Shown here one piece after another: positions 20,164 to 52,766 of a stretch of DNA of 64,000 nucleotides. Location: positions 622,786 through 686,785 of the forward strand of contig NZ_RCDI01000002.1 in the NCBI RefSeq assembly GCF_003675875.1, written 5' to 3'. Both the position numbers and the translations under genes were made by a program. Origin of the DNA: Halostella limicola (GTDB lineage: Archaea; Halobacteriota; Halobacteria; Halobacteriales; Natronoarchaeaceae). Every line of letters starts with the position of its first letter. Position 1 is the first letter of the stretch. The notes below the pieces were generated by a model, which made no database searches, was not told where the DNA came from, and was given only the letters and a program-made list of their open reading frames with translations.

Positions 20164-20220
20164 GGGATTGCCTGCTCTGGGCGCCCCGTACCGATCGTCG
20201 ACCGGTTCGAACTGGTGGTA

Positions 20221-20223
<3 letters not shown>
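20164..20223 (-). pseudogene. Possible 3' remnant of the GNAT gene cut by the TnpB element
   Basis: Directly outside the downstream end of the TnpB element, the minus strand reads YHQFEPVD, which resembles the C-terminal end of haloarchaeal GNAT acetyltransferases (their last strand often ends in YHxFEP). The first part of a GNAT-like protein lies on the other side of the element, on the same strand. About the central half of the gene would be missing, so a deletion accompanied or followed insertion. The short length makes this tentative. Confidence 0.3.
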
Positions 20224-21515
<1,292 letters not shown>

Positions 21516-21636
21516 TACAATTGTAATCAGATGAACTGTCTTAAGTATCTGTGGGAATATCAGACTGTGCTATCGTCGGTGGTTTATATCATCGACTGTC
21601 GGATTCATCCCCGCCCTAAAGGACGGGGCTTTCTCC

Positions 21637-43335: not shown

Positions 43336-46300
43336 CTACTCTCCCTCACGCTCTATCCTGTCGCGGAGATAGTCGACCGTGTAGACTGCCGTCAGCCCGG
43401 GTGTATCGATCTTGAAGTGGTCCGGCGGGGTGTTCTGGCTGTAGGTCTTCTCGACGCGAGGCTCCCCTTCGAGCGGGTCGTTCAACGCTTCGAGAACGTC
43501 GTGGGCCTCCTGGCGCGTCGTCACAACCCAGATCGCCTCGTCCGGGTCGCAGTCAGCGATCTTGTCGAAGTCGTCGGGGACCGCGCGTCTCGTGTCGTGG
43601 TTCACGCGCTCGGCCTCAACGGCGACGACGACCTCGCCGTCGTCGTCGAGCGCGGCGATGTCGAGTCGGCGCTGGTCGTACGCGTCGGTCACCTCTTCGC
43701 TCTCGTCGGAGTCCGGAGCCATGAACGCCGACGCCGGAAGTGACACCTCCTTCAGGTCGTAGTACGGCGTCACCTCCACGACCTCGGACTCGGGGTCGTC
43801 GAGGTACTCCGACTCCAGATACTGCCGGGCGATCTCGACGGCCATGATGTGCTGGCTCGACTCCTCGAGGTCGCCCTGGCCATGGCCGTAGTCGACGCCG
43901 AGGCGATAGCTCTCGCCGATCACGTCGCGGCCGCTCGGCGTCACCGTGAACAGCCGGTGAGGATGGTCCGTGTCGTGGCGGAGAACGTCCGCATCGACCA
44001 GATCCTGCACGGCCTCGCTCTCGATACCGACGTACTCCTGTAAGCGGATCATGCTGTCGTACAGCAGGTCGTACTCCAGCGGGTCGTAGCGTAGTTGCTG
44101 GGCGTTGTACACCGCCTGGACGAACATGAGCTGTGTGTCCGACCACGGCGACGCCTGGCGTTCCTCGGGCGTGAGCTTCAGGTTCAGGTCGCAGATCGGG
44201 ACGTCGTCGGGCTCGACGTCGTCGAGCGTACCACAGCAGCCGATCGCTCGCTTCATTCCCGATATCTGCGGGTCGTAACGGTTGTCGCAGTTCGTACAGC
44301 GCAGCGCGTGGATCGACTCGTCGTACTCGACGGTCTCCGGGAGGCGCTTCGTGTGCGGGAGGGCGCTATCGACGCGCATCGTCGGTTGGTGGGCGGCCGA
44401 GTCGGTCGCGACGTCGCTCTCCGCGAACTCGTCGGCGTCCTCGTCCGTTCCGGCCGTACTGGGCGAGCCGAGCGTCAAGCCGTACTCCGCGGTCGTCCGC
44501 TCGGTCACGGCGTCGACGGCATCACGAAACGCCGCCTGCTCGCGGTCGCGGAGCGGCCGCGGGCCTTCTGGGTCGCCCGGAGGCGGCGACGCCGACTCGA
44601 CGAGGAACGGTCGCGGTTCCGGTTCGCCGAACGGTGCGGGCAGGTTCACGAGCCACTGGCCGCGTTCGAGTGCACGCAGGCGGTTCCCGACCTCCTGGGG
44701 CGGCATGTCGTCGGTGGCGAGTCGCTCCGTGAGCCGCTTGTCGACGGGGACGTTCCCCGTGACGAACGTCGAGATGTTGTTCAGAACCTCGTCGTAGACA
44801 TCGGCGTGCTGGTCGCGGAGCTGGCCGGGGAACTGCATCGCCAACGTGACCGAGCAGTCGAAACTCCGGGACTGGGCGAGCAACTCCTTGAGGAGGTCGG
44901 AGACCGCGACGCTCGCGGCTTCCTCGACGTAGAGGTTGACCAGCGGGAGGTCGTCGTCAGTGCTGGCGGAGCGAGCGTCGTCACCGTCGCTGTCTCGCTC
45001 CGTCTCGTCGTCATCCGCGAGGCTCTCGTCCTGGTGGCGTCGCTTCCGACGGCGAAGGGCCGTCCAGAGGTTCGAGAGGATGAGCAGCGTGAGCACGCGT
45101 TGGGCCTCCGAGCGGAGCGCGCCCGTGTCGAAGATGACGACCACGTCGTCGTTCAGGAAGTCCGCGAGGTCGAAGTGTGGCCCGTCCTCGGTCGCGACGT
45201 GGTTGAAGATCGTCCCGAGGCGTTTGTCGACCGGGATCTTCTCCATCCGGTTCGCCACGCCCTGCATGAGCTCGTCGAACGTCCGCGACCGGTTGGCCGC
45301 GACGCCGCCGAGCATCCGCTCGAGGTCGGTGTCGGAGACCGCCTTCGTCGACTGGCGTTCGTGCATCACCCGCGCTTCCTCGTGCAACTCGCGGTGAGAG
45401 AACGCGTCCTGTCCGTGGACGGGGTCGAACATCGCCTTTACGAGATAGCGGATGATGTCCGGCGACCGGACGGCCTGTTCGAAGCGGTCCCTCCCCATGA
45501 TCCCCCTGAGGATCTCGATGTAGTGATCGACCGTGTCCTCGACGGCGGTCGTCCGGGCGATGCCGGCGTCGAGTTCATCGCGGATGTCAAAGAAGGAGAA
45601 CGCGGGGACGACCGACGAACAGTCGAAGTAGACGACGTTCTCGGCGTGGCCGTAGCGCGCATAATGTGCACGAATGTACTCCAGCGCCATCCCGTCGCCC
45701 TTCGGGTCGACGAGGATGTTCGCGCCGTCGGTGGCGGCGTGGTTCTCCAGCATCGCGTTGATCAGGCTCGTCGACTTCCCCGAACCGGTTTTGCCGAACC
45801 AGCCGACGTGGAGCGGCTGGAGCGACGGCGGGAGCCGGAGCGGGTCGACGTCGGGCATTCCGTCCTGGGTGAGCGGGTCGCCAAGGAGGAGTCCCGGGCC
45901 GTGGTAGCGCCCGAGCTGGTCGACGGGCGGGCGCGGGAGCGTGGTCCGTTCGCCGGGCGTCGGCGAGAGGCTGCGTCTCCCCTCGGCGTTGAGCGTGCTG
46001 CCGTCGAGCAGACAGAGCGTCGGGGCTTCCGCCGGGTCCGCGACGATAGGGTTGGTCGACGTGGTGCCTGGGAGTCGGTCGCGGAGTCCGTCGCTCGAAA
46101 GCGAGTGGCCTCGGCGGTCGCAAAGGTCGCGGGCGACCGCGACGGCGTCGTCGCCCGTAGCGTGGCGCCCCTCGACCGCGTAGCACGTCTTGCCGACCGG
46201 ATTCAGCGCCGTCTGGAGTGCCTCGAGGTGGCGCTCGGTTTCGTCCGTCGCGACGGCGACGGCGCGTGCGGTCACTTCGAAGCAGTGTCGCGGGTCCTTT

Positions 46301-47136
46301 GCGGAGAGTTCCTCGAGTCGCGTCTCGTCGCTCGCGCTGTAGGTCACGTGGTCGTCGTCGGGGTCGGGCGTGCCGAAGAGCCCGTTGAGGAGTTTGTCGC
46401 CGACCGTGTCGGCCTGCATCTCGATGTCCTGTCGGCGCTCGTCCAACTGGCCGCTCCAGTCGGGCTTCGGTCGGAGGAGCGCCTGATAGACCATCGGCTC
46501 GGTCGCGTTCGCCATCGTCTCGGCGACCGTCGCGAGCGGGACGCTGATCGAGTCTTGTGTGTCGTCCTCGTCGTCCGACTCGTGGAGCGACTCGAACGAT
46601 CGGAGGCGCGTTTGCCAGTCGTTGCCACGCTCCGGGTTTCCGGTGTAGTCGACCGCGACGAGGGCTGGGTCGCCGGCTCGTGGGGGATCCGCTTCGTCGT
46701 CGTTGCCGGGGATCCCGAGGAGACGAGCGGGAAACGACTGGAGGTGGTCGACGCGGTCGAACTCGTAGCTGTCCGGGAAGACCCCGCGGAGCGTCGTTTC
46801 GAGCGCGTCGAGCGCGTCCGGGTCGACGATCCCGAAGCTGTAGGTGATCGGCGTCTCCGGGTCGCCGTCCGCGACGAGGAGACACTCCACGGTGCGGTGG
46901 TCGGCGTTGCCGCGGAGTCGATCGAGCAGTCCCACGTCCGTGTCGAGACAGAGCTGGTGGAGGCGTTCGAACTCGGCGTCGAGGGTCTTTCGGATCGGGT
47001 CTTCGGTCGGACGGATGCGGACGTACTCCCGCGGTGGGTCGTCGACGGGTACGGGCAGGGATGTCTCGCTCGGATCGTCAACCTCGTTCTCGGCGGCGGT
47101 CTCGTCGGATGTAGCGGAAGTATCGGATGACAGCAT
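43336..47136 (-). CDS. HerA/VirB4-like DNA-transfer ATPase with C-terminal zinc-ribbon and nuclease-like domains
   Basis: 1266 aa. An N-terminal 400 residues resemble the non-catalytic part of archaeal plasmid VirB4/HerA proteins. The ATPase domain has Walker A GWFGKTGSGKSTSL at about 446-459, LVDPKGDG after it, and Walker B PLVNLYVEEAAS at about 730; AMQFPGQL is the sensor region. At about 945-967 CTNCDNRYDP and GCC suggest a zinc-ribbon. The last 150 residues contain DIAALDDDGEVVVAVEAE and a following DKIA, a pattern of PD-(D/E)XK nucleases. Likely function: DNA pumping or conjugation of the integrated element. Palindromic AT-rich promoter upstream. The nuclease call is tentative. Confidence 0.82.
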   Translation of the reverse strand: MLSSDTSATSDETAAENEVDDPSETSLPVPVDDPPREYVRIRPTEDPIRKTLDAEFERLHQLCLDTDVGLLDRLRGNADHRTVECLLVADGDPETPITYSFGIVDPDALDALETTLRGVFPDSYEFDRVDHLQSFPARLLGIPGNDDEADPPRAGDPALVAVDYTGNPERGNDWQTRLRSFESLHESDDEDDTQDSISVPLATVAETMANATEPMVYQALLRPKPDWSGQLDERRQDIEMQADTVGDKLLNGLFGTPDPDDDHVTYSASDETRLEELSAKDPRHCFEVTARAVAVATDETERHLEALQTALNPVGKTCYAVEGRHATGDDAVAVARDLCDRRGHSLSSDGLRDRLPGTTSTNPIVADPAEAPTLCLLDGSTLNAEGRRSLSPTPGERTTLPRPPVDQLGRYHGPGLLLGDPLTQDGMPDVDPLRLPPSLQPLHVGWFGKTGSGKSTSLINAMLENHAATDGANILVDPKGDGMALEYIRAHYARYGHAENVVYFDCSSVVPAFSFFDIRDELDAGIARTTAVEDTVDHYIEILRGIMGRDRFEQAVRSPDIIRYLVKAMFDPVHGQDAFSHRELHEEARVMHERQSTKAVSDTDLERMLGGVAANRSRTFDELMQGVANRMEKIPVDKRLGTIFNHVATEDGPHFDLADFLNDDVVVIFDTGALRSEAQRVLTLLILSNLWTALRRRKRRHQDESLADDDETERDSDGDDARSASTDDDLPLVNLYVEEAASVAVSDLLKELLAQSRSFDCSVTLAMQFPGQLRDQHADVYDEVLNNISTFVTGNVPVDKRLTERLATDDMPPQEVGNRLRALERGQWLVNLPAPFGEPEPRPFLVESASPPPGDPEGPRPLRDREQAAFRDAVDAVTERTTAEYGLTLGSPSTAGTDEDADEFAESDVATDSAAHQPTMRVDSALPHTKRLPETVEYDESIHALRCTNCDNRYDPQISGMKRAIGCCGTLDDVEPDDVPICDLNLKLTPEERQASPWSDTQLMFVQAVYNAQQLRYDPLEYDLLYDSMIRLQEYVGIESEAVQDLVDADVLRHDTDHPHRLFTVTPSGRDVIGESYRLGVDYGHGQGDLEESSQHIMAVEIARQYLESEYLDDPESEVVEVTPYYDLKEVSLPASAFMAPDSDESEEVTDAYDQRRLDIAALDDDGEVVVAVEAERVNHDTRRAVPDDFDKIADCDPDEAIWVVTTRQEAHDVLEALNDPLEGEPRVEKTYSQNTPPDHFKIDTPGLTAVYTVDYLRDRIEREGE

Positions 47137-47297: not shown

Positions 47298-47723
47298 TCA
47301 TTCCCAAAAAGCCTGCACGCGTTCGTCGAGGTCGCGCAATACGCGAGCGAGTACGTCACGCCAATCCTCGCTATACTCAGCGTCGTTTGCTGGGGCTCCT
47401 GCCTCAGGTGGCGGATGAAAATGCCCTCTCGTATTGTGGTCGTTTGGATGTCTGTCCCATCTACAGTCCCACGACTCACCGCTATCATATTGCTCCGAGT
47501 AGTGGATGCAGAAGTCATCCGTTTCGAACCACCGTATCCGCAGATACGCTCGTTCGACGGCTGCCGGAAAATAGCCCATTTCGTAGTCCGTAATGACCGA
47601 GTTCGGTGCGTACTCCGGATGATACGCGACCGCTGCGATCCGGCTACTCCCTTTCAGGCGACGACCGATCCGTTCGAGAACGTCGATATCGATCGCACCG
47701 ACGTCCTGCTCGTCATCAGGCAT
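47298..47723 (-). CDS. TumE-like toxin candidate
   Basis: 141 aa starting at ATG 47723 (MPDDEQDVG). The middle FCIHYSEQYDSGESWDCRWDR, followed by HPNDHNTRGHFHPP and an alternating-strand start (IAAVAYHP), resembles the TumE/DUF6516-type toxin layout (strand, YxYH-like, RxDnxxHH, HxH, C-terminal helix VLARVLRDLDERV). It overlaps the upstream HTH protein by eight bases, the usual antitoxin-toxin arrangement. The family call rests on motif shape and layout, not on a search. Confidence 0.6.
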   Translation of the reverse strand: MPDDEQDVGAIDIDVLERIGRRLKGSSRIAAVAYHPEYAPNSVITDYEMGYFPAAVERAYLRIRWFETDDFCIHYSEQYDSGESWDCRWDRHPNDHNTRGHFHPPPEAGAPANDAEYSEDWRDVLARVLRDLDERVQAFWE

Positions 47724-48285
47724 CGGCGCGTCCGTCCCGTCCACCGGGCACATCCTCATCGCGGCGAGCGGCATCCAACAGTTCCGCACGCTGCTCTAGC
47801 GTCTTCCACTCAGAGAGTGCCTCCCAGACCTCTTCGACTGGTGTCTCGCGACTCGCATTGACGAGTGATACTGCGTCCGGACTCTCAGCGGCGAACCGCG
47901 CTTGATACTCCTTGAGCGCCTCCACCGTCTCCGTGAGTTTCTCGACGATTTCCGTTGCCGAATATGCATCACGGAGCCGCTCTACTCGCCGCCACCGAAG
48001 ATACGACTGATTCCGTTCGTATCGGACGGGTCGCCCCGAATACTCATGTACGATTCCCATCGCGGCGAACCACTCCAGATAGTCCCGCGCGGTCTCCGTA
48101 TCACAGTTTGCACTCTCTGCTATCGTCGAGACCTTCGTCGGTTCACGCAACTGCACGACAACGTCGAGCAGTCGCTCTCTCGTTGGACCGCCTTTTAGCT
48201 CGTCTTCAGGTGCGTTCAACTCATCGAAATCAGGCGGATCCTCGCTGACGTCGCGAACATCATCTGGGACGTCGGTCAAATCCAT
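47716..48285 (-). CDS. HTH protein, probable antitoxin (DUF7342-like)
   Basis: 189 aa. A winged-helix part (TRERLLDVVVQLREPTKVSTIAESAN, CDTETARDYLEWFAAMGIV) is preceded by an acidic N-terminus and followed by a long helical region (ATEIVEKLTETVEALKEYQARF) likely for dimerisation or toxin binding. The stop lies inside the toxin start (ATGCCTGA), so translation is coupled. A minus-strand TATA-like ATATATTAC lies about 40 bases upstream of ATG 48285. Similar HTH proteins occur beside TumE-like genes in haloarchaeal mobile regions. Confidence 0.65.
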   Translation of the reverse strand: MDLTDVPDDVRDVSEDPPDFDELNAPEDELKGGPTRERLLDVVVQLREPTKVSTIAESANCDTETARDYLEWFAAMGIVHEYSGRPVRYERNQSYLRWRRVERLRDAYSATEIVEKLTETVEALKEYQARFAAESPDAVSLVNASRETPVEEVWEALSEWKTLEQRAELLDAARRDEDVPGGRDGRADA

Positions 48286-50737: not shown

Positions 50738-51411
50738 ACCCACCACCGTTTCAGGAATTTCGGCGTTGTCGTAGATGACTGACGATGTTCGTCAGCAGAA
50801 CGAAGGGAGACACACCACCGTTTCATGAATTCTGGGTCGTCCATTGGAGGGGAAACGCTGCAGTTCCAAGGCACACACCACCGTTTCAGGAATTCGATTC
50901 CAAGTAGCGGCCAGTCACCGCTGTGAGTCCCCCACCACCGTTTCAGCAACTCCTCGATGCCGGATGACACGTACTGCAGTTCTGCCGAGCAGATACACCC
51001 CTGTTTCAGGAATAGATCTCGGAACTGTCGGGGAGGACGGCTGTGTTATCGCTGTGTGAAGTACACTGTGAACGGGACCCACACCACCGTTTCAGCAATT
51101 CCAACGGACTGGTGTCTATATAAAGAATCATACAGTGAACGTATAGAGACTCTAGATGAGTGAGTGAGACTCTCATTCCCTGCCTTTACTATTCCTAGAC
51201 GAAATCGTTATAATATAGTATAATAGCCAGTTTCACCGTTTGTCAGGTACAGTCACCCGTAACGACTGGTATCGTCAGTTTCTGGGTTTTCTTCCCACGT
51301 TTTGCCCACCCGCCTTCTCAGGCCGGAATTGCTGAAACGGTGGTGTGGGTGTGGATCGCTGCAGGTGGGACACCTATTGCCGTCTTCCCCGTCATTCCTG
51401 AAACGGGGGTT
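50738..51411. other. Replication origin with ORB-like repeats and AT-rich core
   Basis: Eight copies of ACACCACCGTTTCAGGAATT-like boxes: six in one orientation (about 50740, 50811, 50872, 50931, 50992, 51081) at roughly 60-90 base spacing, and two inverted (51327-51349, 51393-51411). Reversed they read TTCCTGAAACGGTGGTGTG, close to the haloarchaeal origin recognition box (a GAAAC core followed by a G-rich run). Between both sets lies an AT-rich stretch (51110-51240, including GTTATAATATAGTATAATAG), the likely unwinding element. The adjacent orc1/cdc6 gene completes the classic layout. Confidence 0.88.
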
Positions 51412-51440
51412 TTATTGCGCCCGGGGCAGGTATCCGTTCC
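51393..51440 (+). promoter_or_regulatory. orc1/cdc6 promoter overlapping an inverted ORB
   Basis: The last origin box (TTCCTGAAACGGGGGT, 51395-51410) directly abuts GTTTTATTGCG, a TATA-like element about 28 bases before the ATG at 51441. Binding of Orc1 to this box would cover the promoter, so the initiator gene is probably autoregulated. Confidence 0.6.
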
Positions 51441-52766
51441 ATGACCCAGTTCTCGGACACCTCTCCTATCTTTGAACGCGAGGAGGTTCTTCGCGAGGAA
51501 TACCGCCCAGACGATCTCCCGGAGCGAGAAGACGAGATGGACGACCTCCACATGTCCCTCGCACCAGCCGCGCGGGGCGTCGGTGCCAACAACGTGTTTC
51601 TGCACGGGAAAGCGGGACAGGGAAAGACTGCGACTGCCAAAGCGAAACTATCCGAACTCCAGGTCCACGCAGAGCAGGAATCGGAACATCTCGATCTCAC
51701 CACCTGCTACGTCTCCTGTGAGTCACACGATCTCTCGACGTCGTACAAGACGGCCTCTCGCATCTATCAGGAACTCACTGGCGACAGCCGCCCTACGGGG
51801 TACGCGACTGACGTGGTGATGGACATGATGTTCGAGGCGATGAACGAGATCGGCGGCACCATCATCATCGTCCTCGACGAGATCGACACGCTCGGTGACG
51901 ACGACCGGATCCTCTACAGCCTCCCGCGCGCTCGGGCCCAGGGGGACGTCGACGATCACGTCTTCCCGAGCATCATCGGCATCAGCAACGACCTGCAGTG
52001 GCGGGACAATCTCAGTCCGAAAGTCAAGAGCTCGCTCTACGACGACTCCGTCCTGTTCTCGCCCTACGATGCGACTCAGCTCCAGCAGATCTTGCGACGG
52101 CGAGCGGCCAAGGCGTTCCGACACACGGAGATCGTCCCCGCGGACGAGGTGAGTAAGCGGACTGCACAGCACGGGAACGTCGTTGAGATCGACAACTCCG
52201 CGGACGAGTACCTGTTCCGAAGCGACGTCCTGACCGACGACGTGATTCCCCTGATCGCCGCACTGTCGGCGCAGGACACAGGCGACGCCAGACAGGCGAT
52301 CAAGTACCTTCGGAAAGCCGGCGAGCTGGCGGACAAGAACAACGCGGACCAGGTGACTGCCGAACACGCCCGCAAAGCACAGGCCCTCGTCGAGCGCGAG
52401 GCCGTCGTCGAAGCCATGCGCGAGATGACGATGCAGGCGCATCTGGCACTCGCCGCCCTTACCGCGCTGGAGCTATCCGGGGACGCGCCCGTCCGTGCCA
52501 AGCCGATCTACGGGATGTACAAGAACATCGCCGCCGAGGTTGATATCGACAAACTCGGCCAGCGGCGATTCAAGGACCATCTCCGAGAACTCGACATGCA
52601 GGGCATTGCCGACGGCGAAAAGGTGGCTGCAGGATCGATCGGTGGCCCGGCGTGGGTGTATCAGTTGCAGGTCGACACCGAGATCGCCGTCGAAGTTCTC
52701 AAGGACACGCCGCGGTTTTCGTCGCTCGATTTCCGCAGCGTCAGCGCCGACCGTCTGCGTTCGTAA
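51441..52766 (+). CDS. orc1: Orc1/Cdc6 replication initiator
   Basis: 441-aa AAA+ initiator. FEREEVLREEYRPDDLPERE is the family N-terminus; Walker A is HGKAGQGKTATA (about 55-66), Walker B IIIVLDEIDTLG (about 137-148), with sensor 1 GISND and sensor 2 DTGDARQAIKYLRKAG. The C-terminal winged helix (MYKNIAAEVDIDKLGQRRFKDHLRELDMQG) should contact the ORB boxes upstream. With its own repeat set of unusual sequence, this initiator-origin pair looks plasmid-type. All functional motifs are intact. Confidence 0.95.
   Translation: MTQFSDTSPIFEREEVLREEYRPDDLPEREDEMDDLHMSLAPAARGVGANNVFLHGKAGQGKTATAKAKLSELQVHAEQESEHLDLTTCYVSCESHDLSTSYKTASRIYQELTGDSRPTGYATDVVMDMMFEAMNEIGGTIIIVLDEIDTLGDDDRILYSLPRARAQGDVDDHVFPSIIGISNDLQWRDNLSPKVKSSLYDDSVLFSPYDATQLQQILRRRAAKAFRHTEIVPADEVSKRTAQHGNVVEIDNSADEYLFRSDVLTDDVIPLIAALSAQDTGDARQAIKYLRKAGELADKNNADQVTAEHARKAQALVEREAVVEAMREMTMQAHLALAALTALELSGDAPVRAKPIYGMYKNIAAEVDIDKLGQRRFKDHLRELDMQGIADGEKVAAGSIGGPAWVYQLQVDTEIAVEVLKDTPRFSSLDFRSVSADRLRS

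Follow-up and report, generated by a model that had tools for sequence, protein, structure and literature searches.

Does the repeat array beside an orc1/cdc6 gene in chromosomal-looking DNA of Halostella limicola mark an origin of the chromosome itself, or one that arrived with a plasmid? The window (the whole stretch of 64,000 nucleotides analysed here) lies on contig C3, which is chromosomal, with 19 tRNA genes in the scan and a GC content of about 69%. Our reading is that the site is, with good confidence, a putative Orc1/Cdc6-dependent origin from a family of plasmids, which the chromosome took up as part of a foreign island of 175 kb.

Anatomy of the origin

The box pattern was CACCACCGTTTCAGSAA, with matches accepted at up to two mismatches and counted also at up to three. 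At the stricter threshold, eight boxes (six on the plus strand, two on the minus strand) lie on either side of an AT-rich core, and an intact orc1/cdc6 gene follows shortly downstream. The matches start at 50741, 50813, 50876, 50933, 50996 and 51082 on the plus strand, and at 51329 and 51395 on the minus strand. The features are, in window coordinates:

50741..50759, plus strand: ORB 1, 0 mismatches
50813..50831, plus strand: ORB 2, 1 mismatch
50876..50894, plus strand: ORB 3, 0 mismatches
50933..50951, plus strand: ORB 4, 0 mismatches
50996..51014, plus strand: ORB 5, weak, 2 mismatches
51082..51100, plus strand: ORB 6, left box of the core inverted pair, from pattern match and alignment with relatives, nearly all of which have its counterpart about 380 to 435 nt before orc
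51117..51124, plus strand: conserved ATAAA element (TATATAAA), from the alignment of the window and 21 relatives
51184..51207, plus strand: degenerate copy of a tract of TAC triplets (family consensus CTTACTACTACTAgacGAAAACG; here CTTTACTATTCCTAGACGAAATCG)
51207..51225, no strand assigned: AT-rich part, putative unwinding region (GTTATAATATAGTATAATA), from alignment and AT content
51327..51345, minus strand: ORB 7, right box of the core inverted pair, 0 mismatches
51393..51411, minus strand: ORB 8, weak, 2 mismatches, abutting the TATA element of orc
51410..51415, plus strand: TATA-like element of orc, TTTTAT, 31 nt before the ATG
51441..52766, plus strand: orc1/cdc6 initiator gene, 441 aa (profile matches to TIGR02928 at 349 bits, Cdc6_lid and Cdc6_C)

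The core inverted pair (51082 plus, 51329 minus) is perfect, and two of the eight boxes (50996 and 51395) are weak, with two mismatches each. At up to three mismatches the window holds nine matches, eight of them at the origin, where shuffles gave an expectation of 0.17; none of 100 shuffled windows reached nine. The 4.1-Mb genome also holds nine matches at up to two mismatches, eight at the origin and only one other, which is weak, and the pattern read backwards, used as a control, matched nowhere in the whole genome. The six direct and two inverted boxes described by the first-pass annotation are thus real by pattern search and shuffles, and the scattered identical boxes away from orc genes that it had named as evidence against its reading are absent.

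Of the 60-mers near the core, the richest in AT begins at about 51185; it is 68% AT, a level reached by 0.27% of the 60-mers of the island. The origin region is intergenic and lies directly beside the initiator gene. The encoded Orc exceeds 300 aa and is full-length, with AAA+, lid and winged-helix domains; it has a Walker A motif (GKAGQGKT) at residue 56, a Walker B motif (IIIVLDEID) at 141 and a C-terminal winged helix. It is under purifying selection, with dN/dS of about 0.03-0.08 where synonymous sites are unsaturated. Its solved homologues found by sequence are 2v1u and 2qby, which we take to be complexes with origin DNA. Boxes, AT-rich core, intact Orc and relatives together bear out the anatomy of a complete plasmid-type origin.

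A family of plasmid-borne origins

A tblastn search against plasmids returned five records with Orcs 86-87% identical to that of the window, the next best being 52-54%. On two of these plasmids, NZ_CP026312 and NZ_CP135526, orc was the sole place matched by the query. A genome scan added loci in Halorubrum, Halorientalis, Halarchaeum, Haloarcula, Natronoglomus, Haloarchaeobius and others, and 35 of 392 sampled genomes of the class have an Orc match at E <= 1e-80. Orcs that are 75-92% identical, on plasmids and contigs of many haloarchaeal genera, come with the same boxes and the same core layout: one plus-strand box about 380-435 nt and one minus-strand box about 103-121 nt before orc, with extra plus-strand boxes further upstream of this fixed pair. 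In the window, the spacer between the core boxes falls about 30-50 bp short of that in most relatives. Orthologues usually have another plus-strand box past the end of orc, at a distance of about 14-60 nt (at 295 nt in one); in the window no box was found downstream of orc, the best candidate having six mismatches. A logo of 119 boxes from 20 origins gave a near-invariant C.CC.C..TTTC..AATT.

By these comparisons, the site is a member of a widely shared plasmid-borne origin family, and no isolated class. Another genome (G068) carries the same origin type in its only contig, of 3.33 Mb, likewise in a low-GC stretch.

In the Orcs of three Haloarchaeobius-type loci of the same family (L052, L064 and L083), the AAA+ domain is separated from the lid by an insertion of about 65-70 aa that is acidic and rich in Ser/Thr. 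The same loci have more upstream boxes, with seven or eight on the plus strand.

A low-GC island in the chromosome

The origin sits in an island of 175 kb (C3:643005-818384), mostly 50-65% GC and rich in plasmid-type genes. Features of the island within the window are:

20220..21591, minus strand: left island boundary, a TnpB element of 1372 bp, with its other copy at the right boundary (C3:817013-818384)
43336..47136, minus strand: HerA/TraD-like ATPase of 1266 aa, a plasmid-type gene (weak match)
47716..48285, minus strand: DUF7342 protein, with a relative near the orc of locus L047
49385..50317, plus strand: ArdC-like gene ahead of the origin, with 71% identity to the ArdC-like gene ahead of orc on Salinigranum rubrum plasmid NZ_CP026312

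At the DNA level, plasmids of Natrinema, Haloterrigena, Halomontanus and others have genes 80-95% identical to those of the island. The transfer-ATPase genes at 704-710 kb form a group colinear with one on the Halomontanus plasmid NZ_CP135526, which bears the same orc. In the window and on the Salinigranum plasmid alike, orc has an ArdC-like gene ahead of it. The two TnpB copies are inverted and 91% identical, with no third in the genome. The pair at the island ends resembles a giant composite element.

No tyrosine integrase was found in the island, and a search for att repeats across its ends gave no direct repeat above 18 bp, only short chance-like ones. Comparison with eight genomes of the same family gave no clean empty site, the flanks being rearranged; homologues of the island flanks lie apart in genomes of the same genus. 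Base composition and plasmid-type genes point to an integrated plasmid or island, in agreement with the earlier suggestion of an integrated replicon in chromosomal DNA.

GC skew was considered as evidence for an origin at the island and rejected: the minimum of C3 falls there (permutation P of 0 to 0.002 for the whole contig and 0 to 0.016 without the island), whereas oriC1 on C2 lies at a local maximum, opposite in sign. In archaea, GC skew is weak and difficult to link with origins (PMC12999951). A significant skew V spans C3:430000-1040000 (G000); its minimum coincides with the island, and the island itself is flat. This V may mark a zone where forks meet.

A conserved tract of TAC triplets

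Across the 22 aligned origins, CTTACTACTACTA..GAAAAC followed by TATAATATATAATA is conserved between the core boxes, and the spacer has otherwise diverged. Most sister origins have a recognizable version of this TAC tract; the copy in the window has about four changes in 22 bases. The tract, the GAAAAC and the AT stretch (51184-51225 in the window) were also seen at loci L040-L052 and L127-L131.

The string CTTACTACTACTARNSGWWAA, at up to one mismatch, matched 15 times in 384 haloarchaeal genomes, all 15 ahead of an Orc of the superfamily, at a distance of no more than about 310 nt, and none away from superfamily origins; it was built from some of the matched origins, so matches at origins are expected and the absence elsewhere is the informative part. 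The reversed string, as a control, had no match in the same 384 genomes. The tract was not found in Orc families of about 40% identity or ahead of the remaining Orcs of this genome. Searching the literature for TTACTACTACTA turned up no paper containing the string. As far as the accessible parts of the literature extend, the TAC tract in the unwinding region is a previously unremarked conserved element, new here.

We presume a likeness to the bacterial DnaA-trio / BUS, as a series of three-base repeats (TAG on the complement) adjoining an AT-rich region of opening. It is tempting to speculate that the tract is a dedicated element for opening or helicase loading in this archaeal plasmid origin superfamily, similar to the DnaA-trio or the Sulfolobus ucm, and that recognition of the boxes evolves module by module: changes in the box core would go with the winged helix, and those in the G/T tail with the AAA+ domain. 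We put this forward tentatively, the modular part because hybrid relatives at 66-67% Orc identity suggest it. In any case, the tract provides a specific, testable non-ORB element in the putative unwinding region.

Box type follows Orc type

The genome has about ten genes of the Orc family, and the boxes adjoining the others differ from CACCACCGTTTCAGSAA: AGCATCGGAAACGTGGGGTGGGTG on C4, TTCACCGGAAACGTGGTGTGTG on C6, and TTTTCACTCGTTGCGAGGGGTGTGTGG and GAACAAATCGATAGAGGTGTGTGG on C5. An oriC1-type ORB, CGTTCCACTGGAAACGTGGGGG, lies at C2:223338 beside an Orc with an above-cutoff match to NF001625. Compared in this way, the boxes of the other Orcs are unrelated to those of the window origin, which are private to the Orc beside them. 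The box tail of the window, GGTGGTGTGGGTGT, is conserved and G-rich without a pure G-run, and similar tails occur at other origins of the same genome. The first-pass annotation took this tail, in place of the classic G-run, as distinctive; in this genome it is ordinary. A unique G-less tail is ruled out by the other ORBs of the genome, which end in similar G/T tails (GTGGTGTGT, GGGGTGTGTGG or GAGGTGTGTGG).

Among relatives, Orcs 75-92% identical have the same box, as does one at 72%, a partial copy with boxes downstream only. At 66-67% identity (L049 and L051) a hybrid box appears, CACCACC(A/G)TGTCCGCAATT-like, with its tail in common with the window and its core with the sisters. The sisters, at 47-52%, have a different box, CCCCGGGGTTGTCCGCAATT, and families of about 40% identity have CCCACCATGTCCGCATAATT and other forms. 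The Orc tree has the same group order as the box types, with 100% support for the window clade and an insecure placement of the long-branched paralogues of this genome. The expected coevolution of initiator and box is therefore seen across relatives, where box type follows Orc relatedness. The proposed separate specificity class is supported in that the boxes go with this Orc type, but it is not isolated, being shared by a plasmid origin family of many genera.

That each Orc family has its own ORB is a published rule in haloarchaea (PMC3528665, PMC3936714), and the origins of H. hispanica depend on their own cdc6 (PMC3936714). An Orc-specific box class here is supported by inference and follows this known rule. 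At positions that differ between the window and sister clades, the hybrids agree with the window clade at 31 sites of the AAA+ domain and with the sister clade at 4; in the winged helix the corresponding counts are 10 and 9 (AAA+ versus winged helix, Fisher P 0.006, a post hoc test on two phylogenetically non-independent hybrids). The pattern of these two fits a model in which the box tail would be read by the AAA+ domain and the core by the winged helix. The Orc family thus forms a natural ladder from same box to hybrid to different box, with matching protein changes. This bears on how initiator and box specificity diverge; haloarchaea often have many Orcs and many origins.

How the origin may work

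From this arrangement we infer Orc binding, unwinding and autoregulation. Using its winged helix and AAA+ domain, the adjacent Orc would bind its own boxes. On the inverted core pair (51082 plus, 51329 minus), two Orcs would bracket about 230 bp that include the TAC tract and the AT stretch, and together they could open this segment and load MCM. The upstream plus-strand boxes may raise the local Orc concentration or titrate Orc. At the weak box on the orc promoter (ORB 8), Orc may repress its own gene.

Most likely, the site is a captured plasmid origin that is silent or serves as a backup, like Haloferax mediterranei oriC4. This is likelier than a role as main origin, given a degenerate TAC tract, the lack of the downstream box that most relatives have and the presence of a canonical oriC1 elsewhere. 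A fully active second chromosomal origin, firing in normal growth, is possible though not favored. In its favor are an intact Orc under constraint, perfect core boxes and the precedent of H. hispanica, in which an acquired oriC2 is used alongside oriC1 (PMC3936714); however, the changes in the tract, the lack of a downstream box and a skew at the island opposite in sign to that at oriC1 all argue against regular firing. The same tract changes, together with the weak boxes and the lost downstream box, could instead reflect decay to a non-working origin whose Orc is retained for another role such as regulation, and archaea are reported to have non-initiator Orc1-2 regulators (PMC9738581). We consider this improbable, as the core pair is perfect, dN/dS is low and the genome offers a regulator no other box sites.

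The two remaining readings carry little weight. A free plasmid wrongly joined to the chromosome contig could produce the sharp GC change at repeated elements, but end copies that are inverted, 91% identical and without a third copy would hardly confuse an assembler, making such an artefact very unlikely. Repeats alone cannot tell their binder, which might be a transcription factor or an iteron-type Rep. This is the least credible reading of all: the boxes change in step with Orc phylogeny while neighbouring genes differ between plasmids, and the layout, with inverted boxes on either side of an AT core, is that of archaeal ORBs. As a captured plasmid origin, probably silent or in reserve, the site adds a further case of a chromosome capturing a plasmid origin.

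Comparison with known origins

The closest known systems are the haloarchaeal origins adjacent to orc/cdc6 (Wu 2012, PMC3528665; Wu 2013, PMC3936714), which have the same intergenic inverted ORBs and AT-rich core beside orc, and likewise family-specific ORBs and arrival with acquired DNA. The window differs from them in its G/T-rich tail without a pure G-run, and the accessible portions of those papers do not mention the conserved TAC tract (PMC3528665, PMC3936714). H. mediterranei oriC4 is an acquired origin, dormant yet functional, in a region of variable GC (PMC4595724). Like the window origin, oriC4-cdc6H was acquired, lies in a variable-GC chromosomal region and is linked to its own cdc6, but oriC4 was shown to be dormant and activatable (PMC4595724), whereas for the window origin a silent or backup state is a probable one.

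For the tract, the Sulfolobus ucm (PMC12141716) is likewise a conserved non-ORB motif in the unwinding region between inverted ORBs. The ucm is bound by UBP and needed for firing (PMC12141716), while the TAC tract is without a known binder and is likened to it by description. The bacterial DnaA-trio / BUS (PMC10721633) works with an initiator that differs from the Orc of the window. The kind of origin found here is already known (PMC3528665, PMC3936714, PMC4595724); further attention is best given to the tract and the hybrid boxes.
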